The notes: generated by a model not told the origin, from the sequence alone. Positions 9,806 to 27,797 are shown, numbered from the stretch's first letter. The stretch: 33,839 bases of DNA from Sphingomonadales bacterium (GCA_022360855.1 JAKSBY010000658.1:1-33839); one strand, 5' to 3'. Program-made: numbers and translations.

Positions 9806-11356
9806 TCAGATCGAGCGCTCCTGCCCTTGCCAGAAACGGCTACGTATCTCCCGCTTGAGCACCTTGCCGACCGCGCTACGCGGCAATGTGTCCCAAACCT
9901 CGACGCGCTTGGGCGCCTTCATGCCACCGAGACGTTCCTTGCAGAAGCCGATGAGCTCGTCCGGCCCGGCTTCTGCGCCCGGTTTGCGCTCGACGACCGC
10001 CACCACCGCTTCACCCCATTTGTCGTCGGGCGCGCCGATCACGGCGCAGTCCTGAACGTCCGGGTGCGTCATGAGCGCGTTTTCGACTTCGCTGGGGTAG
10101 ACGTTGAAGCCGCCGGAAATGATCATGTCGCGTTTGCGGTCGACGATGTAGTAGAAGCCGTCGGCATCGCGGTAGCCGACGTCGCCGGTGTGGTGCCAGC
10201 CGAATTTTCCGGCCGCGGCCGTGGCGTCCGCGGCCCCATAGTAGCCGGACATCACGATATCGCCACGCACGACGATTTCCCCCCGCTCATCGTCGCCGAG
10301 CAGCCGGCCATCGTCGTCCATGATCGCGAGCTCGGCAGAGGGCGTCGGACGGCCGCAGCTGGCGAGCCTTTCCAAGGCACCGTTTGCCACCGCCTGCACA
10401 TGCTCCTCGGGCGTCATGGCGGTCAGCATCAGCGGCGCTTCGGCTTGTCCGTAGGCCTGCAGCATGACCGGACCGAACACGGTCAATGCTTCCTGCAGTT
10501 TCACCGGTGCCATGGGCGAGGCGGCGTAGGTCATATATTCCAAGGAGGAATAATCGTATTTGTCGATGTCCGGGTGGGCGAGCAGCATGTAGATGAGCGT
10601 CGGCGGCAGGAAGATGGTCGTCACCTTCTCCCGCTCGATGGTTTGCAGAATCTCCCCCGGGTCGGCCCTGGGAAGCAAGATGTGCTTTCCGCCCATGGGC
10701 AGAAGCGGATAGACGATTCCCGCCGCTGCATGGGTGATCGGCGCAACGGCCAGATGCACGGGCGTGGCCTTGTGCCGGAACAGCATCAACCCCGCCGCGA
10801 TCATGGCGTTCATCGCCCTGTGCGTCAGCATGACGCCTTTGGGTTTTCCCGTGGTCCCGCCGCTGGAGGCCAGCACGAGCACGTCTTCCGGCGCCGCGGG
10901 GACATCGCCGCCATGACCGGGAAAATCGCCGCAAAAGGCTTCCAGCGAGGGGCAGGCTGGCGTTTGCGCGTCCAGGCAGATCATGCGTTTGACGCCCGGC
11001 GCTCTTCGTTTCAGCGCCTCCGCCGCCGCGGAGAATTCCGTGTGGAAGAACAGCCATTTGACGTCCCTGTCGATGACGCCCTCGACAAGGTCTTCAACCG
11101 TGTCGCGAATGTTCAGGACCACATAGGGCAGGCCCGCGCGCATGGCGCCGACCATGGCGATAAACGCCAGCGGATCGTTGCGGCTGAGGACGCAGGCATG
11201 CTCGCCCGGCGCCGCGCCCGCGGCTTTCAGGGCGTTTGCAACCTGATGCGTCATGGCTTGCACCTGGCGGTATGTCGCCTGATAGGAGCTGGCCACGAGG
11301 CAGGGATTGTCGGGATAGCGGTGGGCGCCCGCGTCGAGAAGCTTCGGAACCGGCAT
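9806..11356 (-). CDS. AMP-dependent acyl-CoA ligase
   Basis: A 516-residue member of the ANL (adenylate-forming) family that activates a carboxylic acid with ATP and joins it to CoA. Visible core motifs: SSGGTTGKPKGVMLTH (about 160-176, phosphate loop), YGQAEAPL (aromatic/TE motif with A replacing T), TGDVGYRDADGFYYIVDRKR, SGGFNVYPSEVE, and PRSAVGKVLKR with the catalytic Lys near 497. The start is ATG 11356, preceded by GGAGG at about 11-nt spacing. A longer frame runs back over the preceding gene and is rejected. It sits between the isomerase-like and VOC genes. The side-chain class is nearest fatty or aryl acids, but substrate choice cannot be read by eye. Confidence 0.85.
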   Translation of the reverse strand: MPVPKLLDAGAHRYPDNPCLVASSYQATYRQVQAMTHQVANALKAAGAAPGEHACVLSRNDPLAFIAMVGAMRAGLPYVVLNIRDTVEDLVEGVIDRDVKWLFFHTEFSAAAEALKRRAPGVKRMICLDAQTPACPSLEAFCGDFPGHGGDVPAAPEDVLVLASSGGTTGKPKGVMLTHRAMNAMIAAGLMLFRHKATPVHLAVAPITHAAAGIVYPLLPMGGKHILLPRADPGEILQTIEREKVTTIFLPPTLIYMLLAHPDIDKYDYSSLEYMTYAASPMAPVKLQEALTVFGPVMLQAYGQAEAPLMLTAMTPEEHVQAVANGALERLASCGRPTPSAELAIMDDDGRLLGDDERGEIVVRGDIVMSGYYGAADATAAAGKFGWHHTGDVGYRDADGFYYIVDRKRDMIISGGFNVYPSEVENALMTHPDVQDCAVIGAPDDKWGEAVVAVVERKPGAEAGPDELIGFCKERLGGMKAPKRVEVWDTLPRSAVGKVLKREIRSRFWQGQERSI

Positions 11357-11376
11357 GGGGATCTTCGCCTCCGGAC

Positions 11377-12021
11377 CTAGGCCCGCGATGACCGACAAAT
11401 ATCGGGTATGTTGGACGGCAGCCGGCCGGTGAGTGCTGCTTCCACGAGGACTAGACGGTCGTTGCCGAAATACATGTCGTCTCCATTGACAAACATGGTC
11501 GGTGAGCCGAAGCCGCCCCGCGCTATCAGCTCGCGGCTGTTGTCCAGGAGGCGCTCTTTGATGTCGTCGTCGCCAATACGGCGCAGCACCGTATCCGCGT
11601 CGAGACCGGCGCGCGCTATGATGGCGCGCAGCACGTCCGGCTGGGAAATGTTCTGGAGGTCGCCCCAATAGGCCTCGAACGCCGCCCAGGCGTAGGCCGG
11701 CAGTTTGTCATGATCGAGCGCCACGATGGCGCCGCGCATCAACGCGACCGCGCGCGCGGGAAAGACCGGTGGCATGCCGATCTTGAGGCCGTAAAGCGCG
11801 GCCCACTTCATGACGTCGCGATCGAAATACGCTTTCTTGACGGCGTTGGGACGTTGTCGCTCCTCATAAACGCCCTCGTTGACTTCGTTGAAGACACCGC
11901 CCACGAGAAGCGGCTTCCAGACAATGGCGGTATCGGTCCGCGCCGCCAGCGCCTCGATCTGGCTGAAGGCCAGGTAGGTCCAGGGGCTTGTACAATCGAA
12001 GTAGAACTCAAGTGTATTCAT
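11377..12021 (-). CDS. 2-hydroxychromene-2-carboxylate isomerase / DsbA-family protein
   Basis: A 214-residue thioredoxin-fold protein of the kappa-GST/HCCA-isomerase group. The N-terminus FYFDCTSPWTYLAF carries the SPWTY motif, with Ser at the usual active-site position; this separates it from CxxC DsbA oxidases. The C-terminal part has ARGGFGSPTMFVNGDDMYFGNDRL, the family's cis-Pro and substrate-loop region. Members catalyse glutathione-dependent cis-trans isomerisation of ring-cleavage products, best known in naphthalene breakdown, though many act in other pathways. It lies 18 nt downstream of the DUF2817 gene and 20 nt upstream of the ligase. The link to an aromatic substrate is an inference. 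Confidence 0.8.
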   Translation of the reverse strand: MNTLEFYFDCTSPWTYLAFSQIEALAARTDTAIVWKPLLVGGVFNEVNEGVYEERQRPNAVKKAYFDRDVMKWAALYGLKIGMPPVFPARAVALMRGAIVALDHDKLPAYAWAAFEAYWGDLQNISQPDVLRAIIARAGLDADTVLRRIGDDDIKERLLDNSRELIARGGFGSPTMFVNGDDMYFGNDRLVLVEAALTGRLPSNIPDICRSSRA

Positions 12022-12039: not shown

Positions 12040-13140
12040 CTAAAGCTGGGCGAGCCCGCCGATGGCCTGATCGTACACTGTCAGGCCAGCCTCCAGTGCC
12101 CACGCGCGCCAGCCGGTGTCATGCGGGCAGAACCGCTCGAGCATGAATGTGCGCCAATGCTGCAGGTCGGCCTCGCTTTTGGCCCCCTCTCCGAAGCGCA
12201 GCCACTGGTCGACCAGGATCGCATTGCATACCTCGTCCCAGGGGTGGGTGCCGAACTCGATGACGGCGCTTGCCAGATACCGCGCCTGAAGCATCTCCCT
12301 GACGCCGTTGACCAGCAGGCCCCTGAACTGCGGCCGTTCGTGGTCGCCGTAATTCCGAACCCCATCGGCAATTGTGTCTTCCCCCCACCACTGCGACGCC
12401 CGCCGAAAAGCGGGCGAGCCGGGTTCATCGAAGCAGAGGAACAGCAGAGATTGCGATTCGCCGACGCCGGAATGCCAATCGATTGCCGCCACGTGATCGG
12501 CTCCTGAGAGCTGTTCACTGACGATGCTGTGGACCACGTCATTGGTCCACTCCGGAGCCAGGCCGGCGAAGCCGCTCAGCTTGGGGTGGGCGAACTGCCC
12601 TTCCGACGTCAAGGCGAAGATGCGGCCCTTGCCGTGCCTGTCGAACAGGTCGTCGAGCGTGCCCTTGACACGCTGAAACTCCGTCTCGCTCGGCTCAGCC
12701 ACGCGCAACACATCGACGCAGAGCTCGAAGTCGGGGTCCGTATAGTGCCCGAGATCATGGTCCAGGAAATTGCGGTTGGGGTCGACGTTGTTTTCGGTTG
12801 TGCGCGACATATGCGCGGCGCCGAACGGGTTCACGGCGTGAACCAGCAGCACCGCCGTATCGTTCGGCAATTCGCGATGCCGCTCCTGCAGGACCCAGCC
12901 GATTTGCGTAGCCGCGCCGGCGAAAAACTCCTGGCCGTGCGTTCCGCTGAATACCAGCAGAACGCGCGCCGCGTCCGGGCGCCCGAACCAAGCGGTATCC
13001 GTTACCAGCGCCTCGCCGTCCGGCGTTTTCCCGTTGGGGTTGACATAGGCGGCCATGCGCGCGCCGCTGGCCTGGCAGACGGAAATGAACTTGGACCTTG
13101 CGGCCTCATATGTGGGTGAAAAACACTCTTCGGCCTTCAT
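12040..13140 (-). CDS. DUF2817 (M14-like) metallo-hydrolase, copy 1
   Basis: A 366-residue protein of the DUF2817 family, distantly related to M14 zinc carboxypeptidases. Likely zinc ligands are H and E in SGTHGQEFFAG (about residues 67-77) and H in AIDWHSGVG. VIEFGTHPWDE holds a candidate catalytic Glu. The segment NNVDPNRNFLDHD is a family hallmark (substrate-binding Asn/Arg). The start is ATG 13140, with GGAG just upstream. Prediction: hydrolysis of an amide or peptide-like bond at a carboxyl end. No DUF2817 member has a role I can name with certainty. A close paralogue lies at 26538-27662. It is located 17 nt after the GNAT gene in the operon, and no signal peptide is seen, so it is cytoplasmic. 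Confidence 0.8.
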   Translation of the reverse strand: MKAEECFSPTYEAARSKFISVCQASGARMAAYVNPNGKTPDGEALVTDTAWFGRPDAARVLLVFSGTHGQEFFAGAATQIGWVLQERHRELPNDTAVLLVHAVNPFGAAHMSRTTENNVDPNRNFLDHDLGHYTDPDFELCVDVLRVAEPSETEFQRVKGTLDDLFDRHGKGRIFALTSEGQFAHPKLSGFAGLAPEWTNDVVHSIVSEQLSGADHVAAIDWHSGVGESQSLLFLCFDEPGSPAFRRASQWWGEDTIADGVRNYGDHERPQFRGLLVNGVREMLQARYLASAVIEFGTHPWDEVCNAILVDQWLRFGEGAKSEADLQHWRTFMLERFCPHDTGWRAWALEAGLTVYDQAIGGLAQL

Positions 13141-13157
13141 GGAGCGCTCCGCATCCG

Positions 13158-13700
13158 TCAGCTCTTTCGGTATAATCTGTAAATCTCGTAGTCCATCTCG
13201 CCGCGCGAGGGCAGCACGCGCCGGTCTTCGAACACAAAGTCCGCCCGCGCGGCGACGCGTTTCGAGGGCTCGTTGTCCGGCTCGATCAGCGCCACCACCG
13301 AATCGCGGTCCAGATCTTCGAATGCATGCCGGATGAGCCCCTTGGCGGTTTCGGTGGCGTAGCCCTTGCCGCGATGGCGTTCCAAGAGGAGATACGCGAT
13401 CTCCAACTGCTCCGGCCCCAGCTCCTCCACGTTCCACAGGGCCGCCTTGCCGACGAACCCGTCTTTTCCCGGCGTGCCCTTCTCGAAAATCAGCAGGAAG
13501 CCAAATCCCTGTTGCTCGAACATGTCGGTCCAGGTCTTGAGCTTCTTTGCGATGGTTTCGCGGTCGTAGCGTGTGTCTTTGAAATGATAGTGCATGATGA
13601 GCGGATCGTTCTGCAGCGCCTCGATATAGGGGCCGTCTTCGAGGCGGAGGGGCCGCATGCTCAAGCGCTCCGTTTCGATCCTGTGGCGATCCTCGGCCAT
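13158..13700 (-). CDS. GNAT acetyltransferase, RimJ/RimL-like
   Basis: A 180-residue GNAT-fold N-acetyltransferase. It starts TERLSMRPLRLEDGPYI, the common RimJ/RimL-like opening, with the acetyl-CoA pyrophosphate-binding loop RHRGKGYATE (about residues 112-121) and the conserved helix that follows. The start codon directly follows the stop of the FadJ-like gene, so translation is probably coupled. In this setting it could acetylate a free amine of the substrate or an intermediate, but general protein-modifying members look the same, so the role is open. Confidence 0.8.
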   Translation of the reverse strand: MAEDRHRIETERLSMRPLRLEDGPYIEALQNDPLIMHYHFKDTRYDRETIAKKLKTWTDMFEQQGFGFLLIFEKGTPGKDGFVGKAALWNVEELGPEQLEIAYLLLERHRGKGYATETAKGLIRHAFEDLDRDSVVALIEPDNEPSKRVAARADFVFEDRRVLPSRGEMDYEIYRLYRKS

Positions 13701-15887
13701 TTACCTGTCCTCCTTGTCTATGTCGTAGATGTCCCGCCCGTCTTCCGCCAATCGCCGCAACAGGCCGCAGGTGGCAAACCGCCTTGCCGTTCTTTCGTTG
13801 TAGCCTTCCTGGCGGCGGATCAGCGTCTCGGCGCCAATGGTATCGACATGGCTGAGGGGGCCGCCGGTCCAGCATGGAAACCCGCAGCCCAGCAGCGCAC
13901 TAACGTCGACAGCGCGTGGATCGTTGGTGACGCCACTATCGAGACAGCCAAGCGCGGCGTGGATTTGCGCGTCGAGCAGCCGGTGTTTCAAGGTTTCGAA
14001 ATACGCCGCGTCTTCTGCGGCCTTGCCATGCGTGAACAACTCGCCGAGTTGCGGCCACAGGCGCCGGGAGCGGCCCGCTGCGCCATAATCGTAGAAGCCG
14101 CCGCCGGACTTTCTGCCCAGACGATGCACCTGCACCAGGGCCGTCAGCATGTCGACGATGTCGGCGTGGTCGGCCGCCGCTTCCGCGTCCGCAGGCGGCG
14201 TTTGACGGAGCGCATTGAGCGATGCGTCGTGCCCCACCAGATCGCAGACGGCGAGCGGCCCCATTGGCATGCCGATGGCGCGGCCCGCATTCTCGATCAC
14301 CGCCGGGTGCGCGCCTTCGTTCAGCATGTGCAGGCCTTCCTGCAAATAGGCGGAAGAGATGCGGCTGGTTATGAATCCGCGATCCGCGTTCAAGACCACG
14401 GGGAGCTTGTGGATTTGCCGCGCGAACCCGAAGGCGCGCGACACGGTTTGTGGATCGGTCTCCTGGCCCGGCGCGATCTCGACCAGCTCCATCCGCGGAA
14501 CCGGGGAAAGGAAATGAAGACCGACAAAGCGGCCCTTGTGCCTTAGGCTTTCACCGAGCGGCGTGATGGCCAGGGTGGACGTGTTGGTGCAGATGATCGC
14601 TTGCGCGGGCAGGAGGGCGTCGACGGCGCCGAGTACGCCTCTTTTCACCGTCTCGTCCTCGAAAACGGCTTCGATGACGAGCTCGGTTTCGCCGAGGCTG
14701 TCGAGACTGTCCGTGGCGGCAATGCGCCGCAGGACCTCGTCTTTGTCCCGCGCTTGCGCAAGACCGGCGCGCACGAGGGAATCGTAGGCCGCCGCGGCGC
14801 GATCATGGCCCGCCCGCGCCGCGTCGTGGGAGGTATCGGAGACGACGACTTCAAGCCCGGCCAGGGCTGCCGCCAACGCGATGCCAGAGCCCATCTGCCC
14901 GGCGCCGACGACGCCGATACGCCGGACAGCTTGGTCCGGCGCTTTGTGGCGCTTGCGCAATTCGCGGGGCGACAGGAACGCCGAACGCACCCTATTGCGC
15001 GATGTCGCATGGCGGGCGAGGCGGGCGAATTGCGCGGACTCGATGCGGCACCCCTTTTCGAAGGAGGTCAGCGTCCCCTCATAGATACAGGCGAGAATGG
15101 CCGTCGGCGCGGGGTCGTTTCCGCGATAGACCGACCCGGCGCGGGCATTAGCGAAGATAAACGGCCAGCGGGCGCCGCCTTGTACGCCGCCGCCTGGAAT
15201 GCGGAAGCCCCTACGGTCCCAGGGCTGCGCGGCGTTCTCGGCGGTCTTAACGAACGTCTTGGCCGCCTCCATCAGCTTGTCGGCCGGCACCACGCGGTCG
15301 ATGAGACCGCAGGCCTCGGCCTCGGATGGAGTCAGCACGGCTCCGAACACCATGATGTCGATGGCTCGTTCGATGCCGATGAGCCGGGGCAGGCGCTGCG
15401 TGCCGCCGGCATTGGGAAGCAGCCCGAGCGTGGCTTCGGGAAAGCCGAGGCGGATCGTTTCGTCATCGGCGACGACGATCCGGTGATGGGCGGCGAGGCA
15501 GATCTCGAGCCCGCCGCCCAGGGCCGATCCGTTAATGGCCGCCGCGACCGGCTTGCCGCAGGTCTCCAGCCTGCGCAGCGCGTCCAAGAGAGGCCGAAGC
15601 TGGCCGGCTATGGCGCGGGGTGTTTCCCAAGGCGCCTCTCCGCGCCCCGCCGCGGCGCATTTGCGCTACAGCATCTTGAGGTCGCCGCCGGCCCTGAAGG
15701 TCCGCTTGGCGCTGGAAATGATCAGCCCACGGGCGGCGCCGTCCTCGACAAACCGGTTGATGGCGGAGATAAAGGCGTCGAGGCTGGCGTCGTTCAGGAC
15801 GTTGACGTCGAGGCCCGGTGTGTCCCAGATCATATGGGCCACGCCGTCGTCATCCACCGCATAGCGAACGGCTGCCTCGGCCATCAT
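13701..15887 (-). pseudogene. FadJ-like enoyl-CoA hydratase/3-hydroxyacyl-CoA dehydrogenase with in-frame TAG
   Basis: One continuous frame of 729 codons broken by a single in-frame TAG at codon 74 (15666-15668). The start ATG 15887 overlaps the thiolase TGA. Before the stop is the crotonase N-terminus ending TFRAGGDLKML. The frame resumes, reaching GKPVAAAINGSALGGGLE and then a 3-hydroxyacyl-CoA dehydrogenase Rossmann domain (RRIGVVGAGQMGSG) and its helical C-terminal domains. Nothing else is decayed: no frameshift, and all dehydrogenase motifs are kept. Possible causes are a recent nonsense mutation, a base-calling error or stop-codon readthrough. A TTG at 15587 could restart translation and give a 628-residue chain without a full hydratase domain. 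TAG also ends several neighbouring genes, which argues against recoding. Confidence 0.8.
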
Positions 15888-17089
15888 ACGCGCTCCACCA
15901 AAGCGGCGGTGCTCAGGCCCAGACCTGCGCAAAGCGTGACGAGACCGAGCTGCTTGTCCGCTCTTTCCATTTCGTCCAGCAGGGTTCCCAGCAGCATCGC
16001 GCCGGTGGCGCCGATGGGGTGGCCCAGGGCGATGGCCCCGCCATTGACGTTGACGCGCCCGGGGTCGAGATCAAAAACCTTGAGAAAACGCAGTGGCACC
16101 GACGCGAAGGCTTCATTGACCTCGAAGAGGTCGATATCGGCAATGCCCGTGCCGGTTTTCTTCAGAACCCGCGCGCTCACCGTTTCCGGGCCGGTGAGCA
16201 TCAGCGACGGATCGCTGCCCTGAGAGGCGCAGGCGCGGATCACCGCGCGCGCCTTCAGTCCGTGCGCCGCGCCGGCGTCCTTCGATCCGACCAGAACGCC
16301 GGCGGCGCCGTCGACGATGCCGGAGGAATTGCCCGCGTGGTGAATGGGGTCGATGGCCTCCAGCTCCGGGAAGCGCTGGATCAGCACGTCTTCGAAGCCG
16401 CGCCTGGCAAAGCTCTCGAAAGACGGTTTCAGCTCCGCCAGCGACTCTTCGGTGGTTTCCGGGCGAAGATGCTCGTCCCGGTCCAGCACCATATCGCCGT
16501 TGATATCGGTGACGGCCATCACGGCGCCGTCGAAGCGACCTTCATCCCAGGCATGCGCGGCCCGGCGCTGGCTTTCCACCGCATAGGCGTCGGCGGCTTG
16601 GCGCGTAAACCCGTCCATCGTCGCAATGGCGTCCGCCGCGATGCCCTGAAGGACCGAGCCGATATGGGCCGTCAATGTCGGATCCGTCGATACGATGCCG
16701 CCGGAGCCGTCCATCGGCACGCGGCTCATCATCTCGACCCCGCCGCCGATCGCCAGATCCGCCTGGCCGGACACCACCTTCGCCGCCGCGATATTGACGG
16801 CATCGAGCCCGCTTGCGCAGAAGCTGTTGATCTGTATCCCCGCCGTGGAGGGGGCGTAGCCGGCGCTAAGGGCGGCGCAGCGGGCGATATTGGCGCCCTG
16901 CTCGCCGACCGGTTCGCAGACGCCCAGGATGACGTCTTCCACGGCGTGCGGGTCGAGCGCGTTGCGCTCGCGGAGCGTCTTCAGAACCTGAACGACGAGA
17001 TTGAGGGAGGTGACGCCGTGAAGCCCGCCCGTGCGCCTGCCGCGGCCGCGGGGGGTTCGGACGTGATCGTATATGTAGCACTCTCGCAT
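15884..17089 (-). CDS. Thiolase (acetyl-CoA C-acyltransferase)
   Basis: A 401-residue thiolase that splits a 3-oxoacyl-CoA with CoA. The acylated Cys lies in NSFCASGLDA (near residue 90). The other active-site elements are VNEAFA, GGAIALGHPIGATGA and CAGLGLSTA near the C-terminus; the last differs from the common CIGGGQG form but keeps CxG. The start is ATG 17089, reading MRECYIYDHVRTPRG, which matches the usual thiolase N-terminus. Upstream in-frame ATGs at 17101 and 17125 lie in the conserved leader, which is repeated elsewhere without them. It is the first gene of a seven-gene operon and overlaps the FadJ-like gene by 4 nt. With that gene it forms a complete beta-oxidation pair in design. 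Confidence 0.9.
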   Translation of the reverse strand: MRECYIYDHVRTPRGRGRRTGGLHGVTSLNLVVQVLKTLRERNALDPHAVEDVILGVCEPVGEQGANIARCAALSAGYAPSTAGIQINSFCASGLDAVNIAAAKVVSGQADLAIGGGVEMMSRVPMDGSGGIVSTDPTLTAHIGSVLQGIAADAIATMDGFTRQAADAYAVESQRRAAHAWDEGRFDGAVMAVTDINGDMVLDRDEHLRPETTEESLAELKPSFESFARRGFEDVLIQRFPELEAIDPIHHAGNSSGIVDGAAGVLVGSKDAGAAHGLKARAVIRACASQGSDPSLMLTGPETVSARVLKKTGTGIADIDLFEVNEAFASVPLRFLKVFDLDPGRVNVNGGAIALGHPIGATGAMLLGTLLDEMERADKQLGLVTLCAGLGLSTAALVERV

Positions 17090-17222: not shown

Positions 17223-17597
17223 CTATACGACCTCTCCGCCGGCGGTTTTCCATGCCTTGAAGCCGCCTTCGAGGCAGACCGCGTCATGCCCCATGTCCTT
17301 GGCGAGTTTCGTCGCGAAGCTCGCGCGCCCGCCGGAGCCGCACACGAGTACAAGGCGTTTGCCCGACGTCAGCTCCGTAACGGCGAAGTCAGACGCCGGA
17401 TCGAGAGCGAACTCCAGCCCTCCGCGCGGCGCGTGGATCGCGCCGGGGATCGCGCCGGCCTCCAATTCCTTGCTGTCGCGGACATCGACGAAGACCGCGG
17501 TATCGTCGTTCGCCAGGGCTTTGGCGTCTTCGACGGAGATAAACTCGATTGCCGCCTTGGCGGTCGCGAGGAGGTCGGCGGAAGTGACTTTGCTCAT
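17223..17597 (-). CDS. Single-domain rhodanese
   Basis: A 124-residue rhodanese-fold sulfurtransferase with the active loop C86-GSGGR and the family motifs VFVDVRDSKE and GAIPGAIHAPRG. It moves a persulfide sulfur to an acceptor such as glutathione or cyanide. The start is ATG 17597. It is the last gene of the dgc-like operon, 52 nt after RidA. The MBL-fold protein two genes upstream belongs to a group often paired with rhodaneses in persulfide handling, which suggests a shared role. A weak GC-rich stem (17204-17217) beyond its stop could help terminate transcription but has no T-run. Confidence 0.9.
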   Translation of the reverse strand: MSKVTSADLLATAKAAIEFISVEDAKALANDDTAVFVDVRDSKELEAGAIPGAIHAPRGGLEFALDPASDFAVTELTSGKRLVLVCGSGGRASFATKLAKDMGHDAVCLEGGFKAWKTAGGEVV

Positions 17598-17649
17598 GAC
17601 GAGTCCTTTCTGATGACCTTTGGTCTGATGGCCTTTGGATGGCTGGGAT

Positions 17650-18003
17650 TCAACGGACCGCGGCGGTCGCCTGAATCTCGATCTTCAATTTCGGATCGAG
17701 AAGGTCGGCGCGCACGGTCGCGCGGGCCGGCAGGTTTTCGTGATCGATCCAGGCGGCATAGGCGTCCTTGAACGCCGCGTAGTCGTCGAAGGACGCGATA
17801 TAGACGGTCAGCGACAAAAGCGTGGACTTGTCGCCGCCGGCCCCGGCCAGCAATTGGTCCATCTGTGTGAAGATCTCCGCCGCCTGGCCGGCTATATCCT
17901 TGTCCCAATCTTCGGCGATCAGGCCGGCCAGATAGATCGTTCCGCCGCTCACGACGGCCTTGGAGTACTGAGTCGGGACGGGATCAAACCTTATGGGCGT
18001 CAT
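17650..18003 (-). CDS. RidA/YjgF family enamine/imine deaminase
   Basis: A 117-residue RidA-fold protein. The family-specific Arg (R94 in LPARATVRADLL), needed for enamine/imine hydrolysis, is present, as is the KIEIQATAAV ending with its Glu. It deaminates or hydrolyses reactive enamines and imines. It overlaps the MBL gene by 4 nt (ATGA). In an operon with an amine dehydrogenase, whose product is an imine or iminium, its presence makes sense as the hydrolysis or clean-up step. That link is inferred from context. Confidence 0.88.
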   Translation of the reverse strand: MTPIRFDPVPTQYSKAVVSGGTIYLAGLIAEDWDKDIAGQAAEIFTQMDQLLAGAGGDKSTLLSLTVYIASFDDYAAFKDAYAAWIDHENLPARATVRADLLDPKLKIEIQATAAVR

Positions 18004-18881
18004 TCGCCTCTCCTCGTGCCATAGACGTTAAGGGGGAGTTTCAGATAGGAAACGCCATTTACTTCCTTGGGCGGTGTCTCGCCGGCGCGGAGGTTCACTT
18101 GAATGGAAGGGATAAAGAGCCGCGGCAGACTTAAGGTCTTATCCCGCGCGATGCGCTGGGCGATAAAGTCTTCGCGCCCGGTGCCGGCGCCGACATGGAT
18201 GTTATGGGCTTTCTCTTCGCCGACGGTCGTTTCGCAGGAATGCGCCCGTCCGCCCGTCGCATAATCGTGGCACATGAAAAGCCTCACATCGTCAGGCAAG
18301 GACAGTATTTTTCGGATGGAGACGTAAAGCGTCTCCGCGCAGCCGCCGGGGAAATCGCAGCGCGCGCTGCCCGTGTCCGGCATAAACAGGGTGTCGCCAA
18401 CGAAGGCCGCATCGCCGACCACATAGGTCACGCAGGCGGGCGTATGCCCCGGCGTTTCGATCACGCGGATTTCAAGGCTGCCAAGCGGCAGGACGTCTCC
18501 CTCGGCGACCAACCTGTCGAACGGCGCGCTGTTCTCGTAAAGGCTTGCGGCCGGGAAAACCGTATCGAAACTCCGCGCAACCTCGTCGATGCGCCGGCCA
18601 ATGACAATCTGGCCCCCCAATTCGGCCCTGAGCGGCGCCGCCCCGCTCAGGTGATCCGCATGCACATGGGTTTCCAAAATCCATTTGACGTTAAGCCCCG
18701 CGTCCCTGATGCGATCGATAACCTGGCAAACGGGGGTGGTGTCCACGGCGCCGGAGACCGGATCGAAAGCGACGGCCGGGTCGACCACGGCGCAGGCCCT
18801 GGACCGCGGATCGCGCACCAGGTGCGTGAAGGTGCTGCTGTCTTTCTCGAAGAAGCTCTCAATGATGGGTGCGCGCGCCAT
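18000..18881 (-). CDS. MBL-fold hydrolase, persulfide dioxygenase/Blh-like
   Basis: A 293-residue metallo-beta-lactamase-fold protein with metal ligands in THVHADHLSG (H72, H74, D76, H77), TPGHTPAC, and GDTLFMPDTGSARCDF, plus CHDY. The pattern, especially DTGSARCDFPGG and the C-terminal LRAGETPPKEVNGVSYLKLPLN, fits the ETHE1/Blh-like group rather than true glyoxalase II. Known members oxidise glutathione persulfide with O2 using one iron. It overlaps the EtfB stop by 1 nt and RidA by 4 nt, so it is firmly part of the operon. An alternative is hydrolysis of a glutathione thioester formed from formaldehyde; sequence alone does not decide. Confidence 0.82.
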   Translation of the reverse strand: MARAPIIESFFEKDSSTFTHLVRDPRSRACAVVDPAVAFDPVSGAVDTTPVCQVIDRIRDAGLNVKWILETHVHADHLSGAAPLRAELGGQIVIGRRIDEVARSFDTVFPAASLYENSAPFDRLVAEGDVLPLGSLEIRVIETPGHTPACVTYVVGDAAFVGDTLFMPDTGSARCDFPGGCAETLYVSIRKILSLPDDVRLFMCHDYATGGRAHSCETTVGEEKAHNIHVGAGTGREDFIAQRIARDKTLSLPRLFIPSIQVNLRAGETPPKEVNGVSYLKLPLNVYGTRRGE

Positions 18882-19678
18882 TACGCCTCTCCTCCGGGTG
18901 TAGCAGGCGCCTCACCCTCGACCACGCCCTCCGCGATGAGAAAGTCCAGCAGGCGGTCCGCTGCCGCCTCGGGCGACAGGCCGACGAGAACGTCGCCCTG
19001 TTTCTCGGTCATCTCGGTGATCGCCTTCAGCCGGTCCGCCGCGCTGGCGTTGGGATCTGCCCCTTTGAGCCGTTTGACGCGCCTTTTTGCCGGCGCTGCC
19101 GTCCATGGAAGGGGTGTCTCGGGCGCGATGGCGACGGTTTCGACATTCACGCGTCCCCGACGCGCCTTGGCGAATGCCGATTGGCGTGGGCCCGGCGCGG
19201 CCGGTCCGACGGTCACCAGAACGGGCAGGGCCGCACGCAGGCGTCGCCGCCGGCCCTTTGGCAAAGCCTGCGTTACGATTGCCCTACCGTCTTCAATGCG
19301 CACGGCGCATGCATCGGGCATAAGCGGCCGTGACAAGGCATGCGCGATCCTGTAGGGCAAAAATCCGCCGTCTTCGCCGCCTTCCGCTTGTCGTCCGGTC
19401 AGGATAACATCCGGCGCCCGGCGCGACAGCCAGTGGATCAGCGCAGGTGTCGGATCTGCATCCAGTGGCAGACTCAGTGACGTCAAGCGGCCTATGCCCA
19501 TCCCGAGGTAGTCTCTTAGCGCTGGCGAGTTTTCGCTACCGGCATGGACAAGGGAAACGCTCGCCTCCGGCAAGCGCAGCGCCAGCTCCACGGCCCGCGC
19601 GTCGCAATCGGCACGGCGCGGACGGCCCGACGTCGGATGACGGCCCTCGCAGACGAGAACGGCGACGGAAAGGGTCAT
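18881..19678 (-). CDS. etfB: Electron transfer flavoprotein beta subunit
   Basis: A 265-residue ETF beta-type protein (AMP-binding partner of EtfA). It shows the family layout: the CDARAVELALRL opening, GRLTSLSLPLDAD, PDVILTGRQAEGGEDGGFLPYRIA (adenine-nucleotide region) and a basic LPKGRRRRLRAALPVLVTV strand. A C-terminal extension of about 65 residues is rich in Ala, Lys and Glu. Start ATG 19678 overlaps the EtfA stop (ATGA). It is more divergent than the housekeeping EtfB, as is usual for dedicated ETFs beside DgcAB-type dehydrogenases. It would carry electrons from the DgcA-like flavoprotein. Confidence 0.85.
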   Translation of the reverse strand: MTLSVAVLVCEGRHPTSGRPRRADCDARAVELALRLPEASVSLVHAGSENSPALRDYLGMGIGRLTSLSLPLDADPTPALIHWLSRRAPDVILTGRQAEGGEDGGFLPYRIAHALSRPLMPDACAVRIEDGRAIVTQALPKGRRRRLRAALPVLVTVGPAAPGPRQSAFAKARRGRVNVETVAIAPETPLPWTAAPAKRRVKRLKGADPNASAADRLKAITEMTEKQGDVLVGLSPEAAADRLLDFLIAEGVVEGEAPATPGGEA

Positions 19679-20823
19679 GGGCGCGCCTCGAGCTTCTCTC
19701 GGAGCGCGGCCAGGATGGCGTTGACGTCGCCGACGATGGCGAAGTCGGCGCGCTTCATGATCGGTGCGGCGGCGTCGATATTGACGGCGACAACGCATTC
19801 GCAGCGTTCAATGCCCTGCACGTGCTGAACGGCGCCGGAAATGCCGAGGGCGACATAGACGTCGGCGTTGACGATGCGGCCCGATGCGCCGACCTGACGG
19901 TCCCGCTCCATCAAACCCCAATCGCAAACGACCCGGGTGCCCGCGCGCGTTGCGTTCAGTCGGGTGGCGACATTTGAGAAGGCGTCCCAATCCGTCACGC
20001 CCGCGCCGGCGGAGAGGATAAAAGGTGCTTCTTCCAATACGATGTCATCGGCGGCGATCCGCTCCGGCCCCAGATCCTCGATGCGCGGGTCGGATGGAGC
20101 GCTTGGCCAGTCAACCTCCAAAGGACGCGCCTCGAAGCGTTCTCGCGCGACCGGTGGGGCGGCGGCGTCCATCACGGTAACGACGCGCGGCGTCGGCTCT
20201 TGCAGGTCCTTTGCCCCGCCGAAGCCGCGCCGCACGCACGCATCGCCGTCGAAGGCATGAACGGCGAAGGCGGGGCTGACATCAAGCGCCAAGGCGAGCC
20301 GCGCGGCGACATCGCGCATGGCCGGCGTCTCCGGAAATATGATATGGCGGGGGCGGTAGGCGTTCGCCGCCGTCTCGAGACGGTCGGTTAGGCGCTCCGC
20401 CGCGAAACCAATGCCCGCGCGCGACGGCAAGACGATCGATCGATCGGCCCCTGCTCCGTCGAGGCCGGGGCTGTCCGGCGCGGTTAGCGCGACAACGGCG
20501 CCCTGGTCTTTGGCGCCCTCCAGATCAGCCAAATGGCGGGCGGCGGCGAGCGCCGCCTGATCGGTATTTGAGGGGCCGCCGCGCGCCTCGAGAACGGCGA
20601 AGATCAAGAAGTCCGGCTTTTCGATGACGCGCAGGGGAACGTCCGGCGCCGCCGGTTCGTCCCTGTGTCGTGGCTGCCCGGCAGGGCCTTGCTCAATCGC
20701 CCCGGCGGATGCCGCCCCGGCCGCGGCCAGCCGCATCCGCCGCGGGTCGCGCCGACGGGACTCGCCGGCGCGGTAGGCGAAGGTCGTGCCGAGATCCAAT
20801 CGTGTGCGAAGCGGCGCGCTCAT
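19675..20823 (-). CDS. etfA: Electron transfer flavoprotein alpha subunit
   Basis: A 382-residue ETF alpha-type protein. The C-terminal FAD domain is well kept: GAGVTDWDAF, CDWGLMERDRQVGASGRIVNADVYVALGISGAVQH, VAVNIDAAAPIMKRADFAIVGD. The N-terminus has an extra 60-80 residues, basic and Pro/Ala-rich, before the alpha-ETF domain begins at KPDFLIFAVLE. Start ATG 20823 overlaps the DgcB-like stop (ATGA). With EtfB it forms a dedicated electron carrier for the amine dehydrogenase encoded at the head of the operon. Confidence 0.88.
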   Translation of the reverse strand: MSAPLRTRLDLGTTFAYRAGESRRRDPRRMRLAAAGAASAGAIEQGPAGQPRHRDEPAAPDVPLRVIEKPDFLIFAVLEARGGPSNTDQAALAAARHLADLEGAKDQGAVVALTAPDSPGLDGAGADRSIVLPSRAGIGFAAERLTDRLETAANAYRPRHIIFPETPAMRDVAARLALALDVSPAFAVHAFDGDACVRRGFGGAKDLQEPTPRVVTVMDAAAPPVARERFEARPLEVDWPSAPSDPRIEDLGPERIAADDIVLEEAPFILSAGAGVTDWDAFSNVATRLNATRAGTRVVCDWGLMERDRQVGASGRIVNADVYVALGISGAVQHVQGIERCECVVAVNIDAAAPIMKRADFAIVGDVNAILAALREKLEARP

Positions 20824-22733
20824 GCCGCCGCCTCCGCCCGCCCGACAGTGACCGCCAGGGCCACGAGCTCGATAACATCGACGACAGCGAGGGGGGCGTC
20901 CGTGACGCCTTCCAGCATCACGGCGCAATTCGGGCACGCGACCGCCACGGATTCGGCGCCCGTCGCTTTCGCCTGTGCCATCCGCAGGTCCGGAACGCGC
21001 GCCTTGGAGGGTATGTCCGTAAGCGCCGCGCCGCCGCCCCAGCCGCAGCAAAAAGAGCGCGGTCCCGACCGCTCCATCTCCGGTCGCTGAAGCCCGAGCG
21101 CGTTTATCAAGGCGCGGGGGGCGTCGAACTCACCGTTGTAGCGGCCGAGGTAGCAGGGATCGTGATAGGTCACCGCGCCCGCATCGATGGGGCTAAGCTG
21201 CAATGCGTCCGTCTCGATCAGCTCCGAGACGAAGGTGGTGTGATGAGCCACTTCGTAACGGCCGCCGAACGCAGGATATTCGTGCTTGAGTGCCTGCAAC
21301 ACATGGGGATCGTTGGTCACGATTCGGTTGAATTGATATTTGGCGAGGGTGGCGATGTTCTCTTCGGCAAGACGCTGAAAGCCCGCTTCGTCGCCGAGCC
21401 GCTGCGCAATGTCGCCGACATCACGCTCCTCCTCGCCCAAAACGGCAAAGTCCACGCCGCCGGCCCGCAGAACGCCGATCAGGGCGCGCAGCGTTTTTTG
21501 TCCGCGCAGGTCAAAGGCGTTTTCGCCAAGCCAGAGAAGAACGTCGAACCGCCTGCGGTCGCGCGCCAGCGGCAAATTCAGATCGCTGGCCCAATCGAGC
21601 CGCTCGTCGCGGTGCCGCCCGGAAGCCGTGTCCGTCTGCGCCAGTGTCTCCAGCGCGACGGCGCCTTTATCCGGCGTCGCGCCCTTCTCCAGAGTTTCGA
21701 AGCGGCGCAAATCGATCACCGCGTCCACATGCTCGATCATCATCGGGCATTCTTCGACGCAGGCCCGGCACGTCGTGCATGCCCAAAGGGTTTCCTCGGC
21801 GATGCCACCGGGCCGACCGATAACAGGAGATCCGGCGGCCGCCGTCGGTGCCCCGGCGTCTTCCAGGCCCGGATAAGGATGGCCGGCGTAGTCCGCCGCG
21901 ACGGGGTCGCCCGCGCTCGTCGCCCACAGATCGAAGATCAGCTTCTTGGGGTTAAGCGGCCCGCCGGCGGCGTAGACCGGGCAAGCGTCTTCGCACCGGC
22001 CGCACTGGACGCAGGCGTCATAAGAGAGAATCTGACGCCAAGTGAAGTCCTGCGGCGTCTCGACGCCGAGTTTTTCCGCCTCGAGATCGAGCGGTTTCAG
22101 AGTGACCGCCCGTTCGCCGCCGAACCGCTCAGCGCGCGGATGAAACGCCAAATGCGCCGCGCCCGCGAAAGCGTGACGCATCGGGCCGATGGTCAAGCCC
22201 GGAAGCAAAAACGCGGTCCCGAAGACCCCGAGCGGCAGCAGTGCCAAGCCCATGGGCCCGCGCCAGTCAAGATCGCTTTCGCCCAGAAGCGGCACGGTCC
22301 CGGCGAAATAGAAGACGGCGAATGCGCCCAGCGCATAAGGCAGCAGGTCGTAAGGCCCGCCAGACAGGCGCGACGGCCGGCCGCTGCGCCGCCGGCGCCA
22401 GGCCATCGCCGCGCCGAGCCCCATAACGCCGGCGCCAAGAAGCGTTGCGAGGACGAAAACCGGCGCCGTTGCCCCCAACACATGCACCACAAAAATCAGC
22501 ACGCAGGTGGCAACGAACCCGCCGCCGGCGAAGATGTGCATGCGCGCCGCACGGCCGTCGCGGACGACGACGGTGTGAACGTCGCGAAAGTAACGCGCGG
22601 GGACCGTTGCCAACGCGGCCAAGATTCCGCCGGTTCCGTCGGAGCGGCCGCGCCGCCATAGGAGAATGCGGCGGACGGCGCCGCCCCCTGCGATGATCAG
22701 ACCTATGAGGAATAGGACGCCGGGAACCGTCAT
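20820..22733 (-). CDS. DgcB-like membrane Fe-S protein (ETF-linked oxidoreductase)
   Basis: A 637-residue protein. The first about 220 residues hold several hydrophobic segments (inner-membrane anchor). Two 4Fe-4S ferredoxin motifs follow, CVQCGRCEDACP near 240 and CTTCRACVEECP near 318. The C-terminal half has two CCG-type heterodisulfide-reductase-like domains, with CYLGRYNG, SFCCGWGGG and CPNCAVM near the end. This order (membrane part, 2x Fe-S, CCG) matches DgcB-type partners of dimethylglycine/N-methylproline demethylases, which feed electrons to quinone. The start is ATG 22733, 8 nt after the DgcA-like stop. It works with the DgcA-like enzyme and EtfAB. Confidence 0.85.
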   Translation of the reverse strand: MTVPGVLFLIGLIIAGGGAVRRILLWRRGRSDGTGGILAALATVPARYFRDVHTVVVRDGRAARMHIFAGGGFVATCVLIFVVHVLGATAPVFVLATLLGAGVMGLGAAMAWRRRRSGRPSRLSGGPYDLLPYALGAFAVFYFAGTVPLLGESDLDWRGPMGLALLPLGVFGTAFLLPGLTIGPMRHAFAGAAHLAFHPRAERFGGERAVTLKPLDLEAEKLGVETPQDFTWRQILSYDACVQCGRCEDACPVYAAGGPLNPKKLIFDLWATSAGDPVAADYAGHPYPGLEDAGAPTAAAGSPVIGRPGGIAEETLWACTTCRACVEECPMMIEHVDAVIDLRRFETLEKGATPDKGAVALETLAQTDTASGRHRDERLDWASDLNLPLARDRRRFDVLLWLGENAFDLRGQKTLRALIGVLRAGGVDFAVLGEEERDVGDIAQRLGDEAGFQRLAEENIATLAKYQFNRIVTNDPHVLQALKHEYPAFGGRYEVAHHTTFVSELIETDALQLSPIDAGAVTYHDPCYLGRYNGEFDAPRALINALGLQRPEMERSGPRSFCCGWGGGAALTDIPSKARVPDLRMAQAKATGAESVAVACPNCAVMLEGVTDAPLAVVDVIELVALAVTVGRAEAAA

Positions 22734-22741
22734 GCCCACCG

Positions 22742-24787
22742 TCACAGATCTTTGCAAAGACGCACGGCTTCATAGAGCGAGCCGTGGATATTGCGCGATG
22801 TCACCGCATCGCCGACGCGGAACAGTTGGAACGCGCCGTCGGGATTGTTGACGACCGATTGCGCCCGCCCGGCGATCAGCGCGTGGAGGTCGACTTCGCC
22901 CTGATTGCTCGACTGTTCCTTCAGTCCGAAGTAAAGCCGCTCGCGCGGCAGCGTGCCGTTCTCGATGACGATCTGGTCGGCAACGCGCTCTTCTTCTTCA
23001 TCCGTGTAGGCGTTTTGCAGAACGGCGACGAGCCGGTTGCCTTCCGGATAAATCTCGATGAGCTTTTGATCCGGCGTGAACAGAATGTCGAGCTTGTAAA
23101 GGTTCTTGCGATAGAGCGCCGCCTCGGTGAGGCCGATATCCTGCCCCATGGCGCGGTCGTGGGTGACGAACTCCACCTTCGCGCCGTGCGACGCCATGAA
23201 CTCCGCGCATTGCGGGGCCTGATGCTCACCATTGTCGTCATAGATGACGACGTGCTCCGCCGGCGCCACCGTGCCCGACAGAATGTCCCAGGTCGATGCG
23301 GCGTGCTCGGCGCCTTTTACGCCCGCCGTCGCCGGATCCCCGCCGGTGGCGACAATGACGATATCGGGGTTTTCTCCCAGCACGGCGCCTTGGTCGGCTT
23401 CGGTCTCCAGGCGCACGTCCACGCCGAGCTTCCTGACCTGCAAATCGAGCCATTGCGCGACGTTCGCCAGAGCCTCGTGCCGCGGGGCTTTGGCTGCCAG
23501 GTTTATCTGTCCGCCGGTGACCGCCTCCCGTTCGAACAAAACGACCTCGTGGCCCCGCGATTTGCACACCCGTGCTGCCTCGAGCCCGCTCGGCCCCGCG
23601 CCGACGACGACGACCTTCTTCTTCTTTTCGGCCGGCGAAAAGACATAAGGGATCTCCCGCTCGCGCCCCATGGCGGGATTGTGCAGGCACCGCGCCTGAC
23701 CGCGAATGTAGAACCGGTCGATGCAGTAATTCGCGCCAACGCAGGGGCGGATATCTTCCTCGCGCCCGTCCTTCATCTTGTTGACGATATACGGGTCCGC
23801 CATATGCGGCCGGGTCATCGCCACCATGTCAATATGGCCGTCGGCAATCGCACGCGCCGCCGTCCGGACGTCGGTGATGCGCTGGGCGTGGAAGATCGGC
23901 ACGTCCACTTCCTGCTTGACGGCGCTCGCCAGATACAAGAACGGCGCGACCGGATAGGACATGCCGGGCATGGCCGTCGGGTGGGAAATGTGATCCTGCG
24001 CTTCGCCGCCCATCACGGAGAGGTAATCGACGAGCCCGCGTTCGGCCAAATCCCTGCAGACGATGAGAGCCTCGTCCTGGGTGAGGCCGCCCTTGCGGAG
24101 CTCGTCGCCGGAGATCCTGACGCCGATAACGAAATCGTCGCCCGCATGCGCGCGCATACTCTCCAAAATCTCGACGAGGAACCGGGTGCGGTTCTCCAGA
24201 TTGCCGCCGTATTTATCCGTGCGCCTATTGGACAGCGGCGACATGAACTGCTCGACGAGATGCATATAGGCGCCGCCGATCTCGACCCCCTGCATGTCGC
24301 CTTGCTTGCAGCGCAACGCGCCCTCGCCGAAGCCTTTGACGAGACGGCGGATGTCCCAGTCCTCCGCCTCCTTCGGGAAGGAATGGTTAGTCGGTTCCCG
24401 GATGGTCGAAGCGGAGATGATGGGCAGCCAATAGTCGCGGTCCCAGATCGCGCGCCGGCCCATATGGCCGAGCTGCGCCATGACCGCCGCGCCGTGGCGG
24501 CGAATGACCTTGGCCAATTCCTGGAAGTAGGGGATGATTTCGTCAGTTGAAATGTCAACGTGACCGGCTTCCTTATTGGGTGAGTCCGGCGTCACCGAGG
24601 AGGTGCCGGCGATCATGGTCATTCCGATTCCGCCTTTGGCCTTCTCCTCCTGGTAGCGCCGATACTGCTCCCGCGGCAGGCCGCCCTGCACAAAGCCCGA
24701 CGAGTGGGCCGTCGACATGATGCGGTTCCGGATCGTGACATTTTTGATCGTCAGGGGCTTTAGAAGTGCGTCACTCGGATTATGCAT
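22742..24787 (-). CDS. DgcA-type flavin amine dehydrogenase/demethylase (OYE-like)
   Basis: A 681-residue protein of the trimethylamine-dehydrogenase/2,4-dienoyl-CoA-reductase architecture. An FMN TIM barrel comes first (LKPLTIKNVTIRNRI, QLGHMGRR, GVEIGGAYMHLVEQFMSPLSNRRTDKYGG). A cysteine cluster and an NAD/FAD-type domain with GAGPSGLEAA near 395 and IVIVATGG near 485 follow. The cysteines are C350, C356 and C368, spaced C-x5-C-x11-C, one fewer than the CxxCxxxC-x11-C of dienoyl-CoA reductase. The segment CVGANYCID is, as I recall, typical of N-methylproline and dimethylglycine demethylases. It would oxidise an N-methyl or cyclic amine. The first gene of the operon, with the promoter directly upstream. 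The exact amine is unknown. Confidence 0.82.
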   Translation of the reverse strand: MHNPSDALLKPLTIKNVTIRNRIMSTAHSSGFVQGGLPREQYRRYQEEKAKGGIGMTMIAGTSSVTPDSPNKEAGHVDISTDEIIPYFQELAKVIRRHGAAVMAQLGHMGRRAIWDRDYWLPIISASTIREPTNHSFPKEAEDWDIRRLVKGFGEGALRCKQGDMQGVEIGGAYMHLVEQFMSPLSNRRTDKYGGNLENRTRFLVEILESMRAHAGDDFVIGVRISGDELRKGGLTQDEALIVCRDLAERGLVDYLSVMGGEAQDHISHPTAMPGMSYPVAPFLYLASAVKQEVDVPIFHAQRITDVRTAARAIADGHIDMVAMTRPHMADPYIVNKMKDGREEDIRPCVGANYCIDRFYIRGQARCLHNPAMGREREIPYVFSPAEKKKKVVVVGAGPSGLEAARVCKSRGHEVVLFEREAVTGGQINLAAKAPRHEALANVAQWLDLQVRKLGVDVRLETEADQGAVLGENPDIVIVATGGDPATAGVKGAEHAASTWDILSGTVAPAEHVVIYDDNGEHQAPQCAEFMASHGAKVEFVTHDRAMGQDIGLTEAALYRKNLYKLDILFTPDQKLIEIYPEGNRLVAVLQNAYTDEEEERVADQIVIENGTLPRERLYFGLKEQSSNQGEVDLHALIAGRAQSVVNNPDGAFQLFRVGDAVTSRNIHGSLYEAVRLCKDL

Positions 24788-24865: not shown

Positions 24866-24875
24866 TAACATGTTA
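24866..24875. promoter_or_regulatory. Palindromic operator TAACATGTTA, dgc-side
   Basis: A perfect 10-bp palindrome, one base downstream of the -10 element of the dgcA-like promoter, thus over the probable start of transcription. A near copy (TAACATGTTT) lies at 24989-24998 before the GntR gene. Position and symmetry fit a repressor site for the FCD regulator; this is inferred. Confidence 0.55.
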
Positions 24876-24876
24876 G

Positions 24877-24904
24877 ATGATAGTAATATTGCGAATGATG
24901 TCAA
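24877..24904 (-). promoter_or_regulatory. Sigma-70-type promoter of the dgcA-like operon
   Basis: Reading the minus strand: TTGACA (24904-24899, full consensus), a 16-nt spacer, then TATCAT (24882-24877, 5 of 6). Transcription would start near 24870, giving a leader of about 80 nt before the ATG at 24787. It is the best housekeeping promoter in the window. Confidence 0.6.
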
Positions 24905-24988: not shown

Positions 24989-24998
24989 TAACATGTTT
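24989..24998. promoter_or_regulatory. Second TAACATGTT operator, GntR side
   Basis: TAACATGTTT, 9/10 identical to the palindrome at 24866-24875. It lies 11 nt before the ATG of the GntR gene and touches its ribosome-binding site (TGAGG). This fits autorepression. Confidence 0.5.
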
Positions 24999-25009
24999 GA
25001 GGCTGAACC

Positions 25010-25747
25010 ATGCCGAACGCGGTTGTCGACATGCAGGGTGCTCGGTCGGCCCGGTCCGAGACGGACGCGGCCACCGGTGACGAACTGGGCTACCAGGCTT
25101 ATGCGCGCATCAAGGAAGATATCGTGCGCTGCATTCTTCCGCCCGGCGCGAATCTCACCGAAGGCCGGCTGACGGACCGCTACGGATTTGGCAAGGGGCC
25201 GATACGATCCGCTTTGCTACGGCTGCGCCATGACGGCCTCGTTCAGTCGGAACGGCGCAAGGGCTATAAGGTCACGGTTGTCACGTTCGATGACGTGCAG
25301 GACGTCTTTCATCTCAGGCTTATCCTTGAGCCGGAAGCCGCCCGGCTCGCGGCGGGACGGCTGTCGGAAGACGATGTGAGAGCGCTGCGCGCCGCGTGCG
25401 AGGTCAGCCTTCGGCCGGATGACCGGGACAGCGACGCCATCTTTCTGCGGTCCAACAAGTCATTCCACGTCGGAATTGCCGAGGCCTCGGGCAATGCCAG
25501 GCTCGCCTATCTTATCTCGAACCTCCTGGACGACGCGGAGAGAATACTGCACCTCGGTCTCGCCAAAGAGCCGAGAAGCCTGGATTTTCAATCCGAGCAC
25601 AAGGAATTGCTTCACCTGTTGATGACCAACCAGGCAGACCGGGCCGCGGAAACCGTCCGGCGTCAAATAGAAGGCGGGCTTTCGATGGTGATGCGCAGTC
25701 TTTTGTCAGGCGACTCCGACGGTGCGACCACGATTCGTGCGCCGTGA
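25010..25747 (+). CDS. GntR-family regulator, FadR/FCD subgroup
   Basis: A 245-residue repressor-type regulator. The winged-helix domain (about residues 27-90) includes EGRLTDRYGFGKGPIRSALLRLRHDGLV and the wing SERRKGYKV. The C-terminal all-helical FCD domain has metal-binding-type His residues in SFHVGIAEASGN and SEHKELLHLL. The start is ATG 25010, with TGAGG 7 nt upstream. It is divergent from the dgcA-like operon and most likely controls it and itself through the two TAACATGTT sites. FCD effectors are usually small organic acids. Its last 85 nt overlap the convergent VOC gene. Confidence 0.88.
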   Translation: MPNAVVDMQGARSARSETDAATGDELGYQAYARIKEDIVRCILPPGANLTEGRLTDRYGFGKGPIRSALLRLRHDGLVQSERRKGYKVTVVTFDDVQDVFHLRLILEPEAARLAAGRLSEDDVRALRAACEVSLRPDDRDSDAIFLRSNKSFHVGIAEASGNARLAYLISNLLDDAERILHLGLAKEPRSLDFQSEHKELLHLLMTNQADRAAETVRRQIEGGLSMVMRSLLSGDSDGATTIRAP

Positions 25748-26517: not shown

Positions 26518-26537
26518 GGGCGTATGCACCGCTTTTG

Positions 26538-27662: not shown

Positions 27663-27683
27663 TCCCGCGCCTCCTAATTCGCT

Positions 27684-27797
27684 GTCGCACTCCCGCATGG
27701 AGCCAAGCAGCCTCCGCCGCACTTCACCTCACTCCTACGCCGCATCGGGACGGCGTTCCATTCAGGCGCGGAAATATCAGCTATAGGTGGCGCTTTG
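27684..27797 (-). repeat. Promoter-leader repeat, copy B (second DUF2817 operon)
   Basis: Counterpart of 17075-17202. It carries the shared 16-base motif, TGGAAC (27760-27755), a 15-nt spacer, CGTAGG (27739-27734), the purine-rich GCGGCGGAGG stretch and ATG-CGG-GAG-TGC (MREC) in frame with the DUF2817 gene. Homology to copy A stops right after these codons. Confidence 0.85.
27772..27787 (-). promoter_or_regulatory. Shared upstream motif AAATATCAGCTATAGG, site 2
   Basis: Identical over 16 bases to site 1 (17177-17192). It lies in the 175-nt region between the leftward DUF2817 gene and the rightward MFS gene, so it could serve both. Confidence 0.55.

Follow-up and report, generated by a model that had tools for sequence, protein, structure and literature searches.

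Which amine is oxidised by an operon that joins DgcAB-EtfAB genes to genes for an MBL-fold protein, a RidA-family deaminase and a rhodanese, and do the added genes belong to the system? The question is raised by a sequence of 33,839 nt from a Sphingomonadales bacterium (GCA_022360855.1 JAKSBY010000658.1:1-33839; the window, meaning the whole stretch analysed). In Pseudomonas aeruginosa and Vibrio natriegens, the dgcAB_fixAB operon encodes a dimethylglycine demethylase (PMC12093977). The window operon resembles it in placing dgcA-dgcB before the ETF genes, in encoding a DgcB with DUF3483 and an Fe-S domain, and in having a dedicated ETF. Unlike dgcAB_fixAB, it has no linked gbc or sox genes, it is accompanied by a GntR gene rather than AraC-type regulators, RidA and rhodanese follow EtfB, and residues of the FMN domain are changed.

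Gene organization of the operon

Seven ORFs occupy positions 17223-24787, all on the minus strand and in the order DgcA, DgcB, EtfA, EtfB, MBL, RidA, rhodanese (Table 1), as the original prediction had it. Starts were corrected against relatives; for dgcB, whose ORF as listed begins at 22757, the Parvularcula homologue was used. After this correction the claim that five of the six junctions either overlap or leave a gap of less than 10 nt holds: DgcA-DgcB are separated by 8 nt, DgcB-EtfA and EtfA-EtfB each overlap by 4, EtfB-MBL by 1 and MBL-RidA by 4, and only RidA-rhodanese has a longer gap (52 nt). For all operon genes except MBL, comparison with Parvularcula indicated purifying selection (dN 0.08-0.50, dS 1.7 to saturated), with differences mostly at third codon positions.

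Genes on the same strand continue 133 nt past the rhodanese (thiolase, ECH-HAD, GNAT, DUF2817, DSBA, CoA ligase, VOC), and a search of this 133-nt gap found no terminator-like site; the operon is therefore possibly longer than seven genes. Thus, while the gene set and order of the predicted seven-gene operon stand, its boundary may have been drawn too short, and conservation does not extend to the MBL gene (see below).

Table 1. Coordinates of the operon, its putative control elements and neighbouring genes in the window
Feature	Position	Strand	Remarks
dgcA-like flavin amine dehydrogenase, OYE/FMN barrel + Rossmann domain, 681 aa	22742..24787	-	
dgcB-like membrane Fe-S protein, DUF3483 + 4Fe-4S + CCG domain	20820..22733	-	start from Parvularcula homologue
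etfA, electron transfer flavoprotein alpha	19675..20823	-	
etfB, electron transfer flavoprotein beta	18881..19678	-	
MBL-fold protein, persulfide-dioxygenase type	18000..18881	-	at this place in the window only
RidA-family imine/enamine deaminase	17650..18003	-	catalytic Arg94 and Glu109 kept
Single-domain rhodanese, loop CGSGGRAS	17223..17597	-	
Sigma-70-like promoter, TTGACA-16-TATCAT, 11/12 matches	24877..24904	-	before dgcA, end 89 nt upstream
Palindrome TAACATGTTA, putative GntR operator	24866..24875		directly downstream of -10 hexamer
Second palindrome copy, 1 mismatch	24989..24998		near GntR start; possible autoregulation
GntR/FCD regulator, divergent	25010..25747	+	48% identity to gammaproteobacterial one beside dgcB
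Thiolase	15884..17089	-	possible transcript continuation
Enoyl-CoA hydratase / 3-hydroxyacyl-CoA dehydrogenase (ECH-HAD)	13701..15884	-	possible continuation
DUF2817 protein	12040..13158	-	62% identity to paralogue 26538-27722
Acyl-CoA ligase	9806..11380	-	

Several features of the flanking DNA were observed. The ECH-HAD gene, otherwise complete, carries an in-frame TAG at residue 73 (15666-15668), which is a nonsense mutation, an assembly error or the mark of a pseudogene. Two VOC (Glyoxalase_3) genes that are 58% identical flank the operon (8988-9791 and 25663-26541), as do the two DUF2817 genes of Table 1; the family of the copy at 12040-13158 was assigned through its identity to the paralogue. 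The two pairs look as if a VOC-DUF2817 unit had been duplicated. A VOC-DUF2817 pair also occurs on a Caballeronia plasmid (L198), where genes for an amidase and an ectoine-synthase-like protein accompany it, and in a gammaproteobacterium a DUF2817 homologue directly follows dgcB. The literature on DUF2817 function yielded nothing useful.

The flavoprotein belongs to the DgcA/HpbA family

The window DgcA has the OYE FMN barrel, the Rossmann domain and the length (~680 aa) that define the DgcA/HpbA family. PDB sequence and fold searches matched it to the TMADH / histamine dehydrogenase / dienoyl-CoA reductase / NCR superfamily, and its structural model reached a pLDDT of 89.9. A tree of 86 proteins placed it within the DgcA/HpbA clade at support 100, separate from the FadH-like rows and so not among the dienoyl-CoA reductases, the placement named beforehand as a refutation. 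The second Fe-S cysteine, present in FadH and TMADH relatives, is absent throughout the DgcA/HpbA family as aligned, the window protein included (motif CVGA-xYC, window residues 349-367). Tree position and this degenerate motif, where four cysteines are expected, rule out a 2,4-dienoyl-CoA reductase (FadH); a serine at the Cys30 position and the missing second Fe-S cysteine rule out a TMADH-type covalent-FMN enzyme. Trimethylamine and histamine dehydrogenases and the 6-HPON amine oxidase HisD share the two-domain fold (TMq 0.85-0.86) and, presumably, amine oxidation with the window DgcA, but identity is only 23-24%, and the window protein lacks a cysteine at the FMN attachment site and one Fe-S cysteine.

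The partners DgcB, EtfA and EtfB are encoded in canonical dgc order. By its sequence, the window enzyme is a member of the DgcA/HpbA family of OYE-type N-demethylases, and the expected combination of a flavin amine dehydrogenase with a membrane Fe-S partner and its own ETF appears to be present as DgcA/HpbA-family, DgcB-type and EtfAB proteins. Within the family, the window DgcA did not group with the DgcA of gbc/sox-linked operons, ten canonical rows of which clustered without it (support 100), and it did not fall inside the HpbA/StcD clade. It has the OYE-type family and the degenerate Fe-S motif in common with the HpbA/StcD N-methylproline demethylases, but belongs to a separate clade (support 100); moreover, the HpbA loci examined have no DgcB homologue, whereas the window does.

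The FMN domain is altered in a four-member clade

A scan of 84,980 genomes for close DgcA relatives found only three other loci in the window clade, those of Parvularcula (87% identity), Henriciella (80%) and the gammaproteobacterium SZUA-142 (68%); the next match was at 56%. The window, Parvularcula and Henriciella proteins group together at support 100, on a long stem (0.71). The gammaproteobacterial DgcA, which was not among the 86 tree proteins and was aligned afterwards, is 66-68% identical to the other three, and the diagnostic changes are common to all.

Positions were taken as conserved at 90% or more in the rest of the DgcA/HpbA family, and changes were counted if fixed in the clade. 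By this measure, 19 of 127 conserved FMN-domain positions are changed in the four-member clade, compared with 0-7 in other multi-member clades; the count for the other domain is 4 of 60, and the excess of FMN-domain over FAD-domain changes is not significant (Fisher p 0.15). The changes include P30S, Y32F, R41Q, T107G, R135H, D166Q and G175M, and at a looser cut-off W182 is replaced by Leu or Met. The sequence motifs STAHSSGF and GGAYMHLVEQF are characteristic of the clade. P30, R41, R135 and D166 are kept in HpbA/StcD. In the model, positions 30, 32, 62, 107, 135 and 175 lie in or just after FMN-barrel strands, on the side that binds substrate in enzymes of this kind. Single divergent, long-branch sequences reach similar FMN-domain counts (18 for L025, 13 for L037), and given the long stem branch the divergence may partly reflect drift or HGT in this clade of four, drawn from fragmented MAGs. 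The window operon is a rare, real variant of the DgcAB-EtfAB system.

In the gammaproteobacterial dgcA homologue, codon 427 is an in-frame TAG (L028, 11267-11269), and this copy may therefore be broken or misassembled. Tandem pairs of DgcA-family genes were seen in a Rhizobium MAG (L036, 10001-14144) and an alphaproteobacterial MAG (L042, 7879-12025).

RidA and rhodanese, but not the MBL, follow EtfB in two relatives

The original prediction treated MBL, RidA and rhodanese as one tail and proposed a neighbourhood survey of DgcA homologues. This survey separated the three genes. RidA-rhodanese come immediately after EtfB in Parvularcula (80% and 66% identity; the contig ends within the rhodanese) and Henriciella (56% and 65%), whereas in the window alone the MBL gene stands between. 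RidA-rhodanese is therefore linked to the system in two other genomes, and the MBL is not: across 86 loci it occurs elsewhere only 4 kb away (Henriciella) or 9 kb away (Rhodomicrobium), and it was rejected as a conserved partner. In a profile survey of the 86 DgcA-family loci, RidA adjoined EtfB at no locus outside the window, Parvularcula and Henriciella, and RidA homologues of 40-47% identity found in order and class surveys stood beside no Dgc genes. In the gammaproteobacterium three contig pieces carry the dgc genes (VOC-dgcA, L028; etfA-etfB and GntR-dgcB, L176; dgcB end-DUF2817, L175), and neither RidA nor rhodanese was found there after EtfB.

A rhodanese near the DgcA homologue occurs at only one other of the 86 loci, which falls on the HpbA side of the tree: in this Acetobacteraceae MAG (L056, 12919-13341) it lies ~0.9 kb after dgcA and is 45% identical to that of the window. 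At the sister locus, L050, it is missing.

The window RidA matches PF01042, and Arg94 and Glu109, which we take to be the equivalents of catalytic Arg105 and Glu120 in reference numbering, are invariant in the alignment, consistent with the predicted role as an imine or enamine hydrolase. From its full-length similarity to persulfide dioxygenase and its HxHxDH metal motif, the MBL is assigned to the persulfide-dioxygenase type (the PDO/SDO part of Blh). The bigR operon, with Blh and MBL-rhodanese pairs (PMC5823870), provides a precedent for a persulfide-dioxygenase-type MBL close to a rhodanese. The window likewise has such an MBL and a rhodanese nearby; in contrast to the bigR operon, no BigR/ArsR or TauE/YeeE genes were found among the identified window genes, RidA lies between MBL and rhodanese, and in two window relatives the rhodanese has no adjacent MBL. 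Thus MBL with rhodanese has a sulfur precedent, while RidA with rhodanese after EtfB is peculiar to this clade. Since the MBL is of persulfide-dioxygenase type and MBL-rhodanese pairs are known from sulfide operons, sulfur is the likelier half of the earlier suggestion that these proteins handle glutathione-bound sulfur or carbon. The literature on RidA together with rhodanese, ETF and demethylase yielded nothing useful.

A conserved palindrome precedes dgcA

The 222-nt gap between dgcA and the divergent GntR gene contains two copies of a palindrome, versus 0.10 expected in the whole window. Upstream of dgcA in Parvularcula, TCTAACATGTTAGA is the sole perfect match in that genome, and in the gammaproteobacterium TGTAACATGTTAGA lies between dgcB and a GntR gene 48% identical to that of the window. 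No copy was found at the Henriciella locus. The palindrome before dgcA, newly described here, is probably the operator of a dedicated regulator. In a regulon scan, sites with two mismatches were hardly above control counts in any genome; there are thus no safe targets beyond the dgc sites, and no wider regulon is claimed. A one-mismatch copy directly precedes an amino-acid-permease-like gene in Parvularcula (L181, 1501; contig C530:4125), which possibly encodes the substrate transporter unless the match arose by chance. An Rfam search gave no match.

Genome context and alternative explanations

At all ten canonical loci, gbcAB and/or soxBDAG adjoin dgcA. Ordinary dgcAB-etfAB loci occur in the alphaproteobacteria Azospirillum, Acetobacter, Komagataeibacter, Gluconacetobacter, Acidiphilium, Breoghania and Rhodomicrobium, often alongside AraC-type (GlxA) genes; their gene set serves betaine and dimethylglycine degradation in V. 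natriegens and Pseudomonas (PMC12093977). No readable locus of the four-member clade has linked gbcAB or soxBDAG.

An ordinary dimethylglycine demethylase no longer linked to gbc/sox genes, with the extra genes as incidental neighbours, would account for the family and for a dgcA-dgcB-ETF order like that of the Pseudomonas and Vibrio operons (PMC12093977). Each of the four clade genomes has a single DgcA-family gene and unlinked SoxBDA genes; sarcosine-type chemistry is thus present, and conversion of dimethylglycine through sarcosine to glycine could proceed. However, the window, Parvularcula and Henriciella genomes gave only weak partial matches to GbcA and no orthologue (the gammaproteobacterium has one, 44%), so the usual betaine source is missing from these three. 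In addition, FMN-domain positions kept in dimethylglycine-context and N-methylproline enzymes are changed here, and the window genome has at least one SoxBDA set of the N-methylglutamate dehydrogenase (mgd-like) type, next to gmaS-like and mgsABC-like genes on contig C614. We therefore regard this explanation as unlikely. That region (L141, 8000-26000), with gmaS-like, mgsABC-like, SoxBDA-like dehydrogenase and purU-like genes, was assigned to the N-methylglutamate (methylamine) pathway from the sequence by eye. The same genes would suit an enzyme that releases methylamine for this pathway by cutting an N-methylated secondary amine at the bond away from the methyl group, as happens when pseudooxynicotine or N-methyl-aminobutyrate is broken down. 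HisD (6l6j), which shares the fold, is a pseudooxynicotine amine oxidase, and a succinate-semialdehyde-dehydrogenase-like ALDH is encoded nearby (30026-31525), although its match is below the cut-off and its family assignment weak. A close gmaS was found in the window genome but not in Parvularcula, Henriciella or the gammaproteobacterium, and we consider methylamine release improbable.

The tail could also be a sulfur-detoxification unit inserted by chance and uninvolved in amine oxidation, its MBL and rhodanese being derived from a bigR-type operon. Plasmids of Bradyrhizobium, Novosphingobium and Microvirga do carry MBL-rhodanese pairs, in three ArsR/TauE operons of this type; two of the three plasmid MBLs share 43% identity with that of the window. 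Yet the clade rhodaneses are closer to each other (57-66%) than to those of other loci (~36-47%), and since Parvularcula and Henriciella have no MBL between EtfB and RidA, the rhodanese, which there follows RidA, did not arrive as part of an MBL pair. Chance insertion accounts better for the MBL than for the rhodanese, and as an explanation of the whole tail it seems doubtful.

Together, the changed FMN-domain positions, the missing gbc/sox linkage and the absence of GbcA from three of four genomes make dimethylglycine and N-methylproline unlikely substrates, while the altered active-site domain, a probable control site of its own and the extra imine and sulfur genes point to a different nitrogen substrate. 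The operon probably breaks down a nitrogen compound other than dimethylglycine-like amines. CoA ligases, beta-oxidation genes and DUF2817 or M14-type hydrolases give a weak hint that the amine is freed from an acylated or amide-linked precursor; such acyl or hydrolase genes lie near the window, Henriciella and gammaproteobacterial loci, with CoA ligases near dgcA in the latter two. The literature on N-methylpyrrolidone breakdown yielded nothing useful.

Discussion

From the gene order, homology, clade, active-site-domain divergence and conserved palindrome established here, we infer a substrate class, a set of catalytic steps and repression. The favoured model, which we hold with some confidence on comparative sequence evidence, is an inducible catabolic operon with a divergent DgcAB-EtfAB amine dehydrogenase at its core, one that probably acts on neither dimethylglycine nor N-methylproline. 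At its FMN, the DgcA-like enzyme would oxidise a C-N bond in an N-methyl amine or another secondary or tertiary amine, giving an imine or iminium. This product would hydrolyse to an amine and a carbonyl compound, which for removal of a methyl group would be formaldehyde, and RidA would accelerate the hydrolysis of an intermediate imine or enamine. From DgcA, electrons would reach the quinone pool by way of EtfAB and then DgcB, the membrane Fe-S protein. The GntR protein encoded divergently may repress the operon at TAACATGTTA until substrate or product appears, and the rhodanese, with the persulfide-dioxygenase-type MBL in the window, would be sulfur-handling additions. Both the divergence of the active-site domain and the lack of gbc/sox linkage favour the notion of a distinct module; a ring-opening function would be conjectural.

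More speculatively, DgcAB-EtfAB could have acquired a new specificity for an N-methyl or cyclic amine not yet described, with RidA serving the imine, rhodanese and persulfide chemistry serving a sulfur-containing or thiol-trapped product, and the GntR/TAACATGTTA switch shared across Alpha- and Gammaproteobacteria; this fuller version is tentative.

DgcAB/HpbA enzymes are central to the bacterial use of methylated osmolytes. If the model is correct, the changed FMN domain, the RidA partner and the probable dedicated regulator would widen the range of amines within reach of this chemistry, and the link to RidA would directly exemplify the pairing of a dehydrogenase that releases an imine with a dedicated imine hydrolase. 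The conserved operator would offer a ready route to the inducer, and hence to the substrate.
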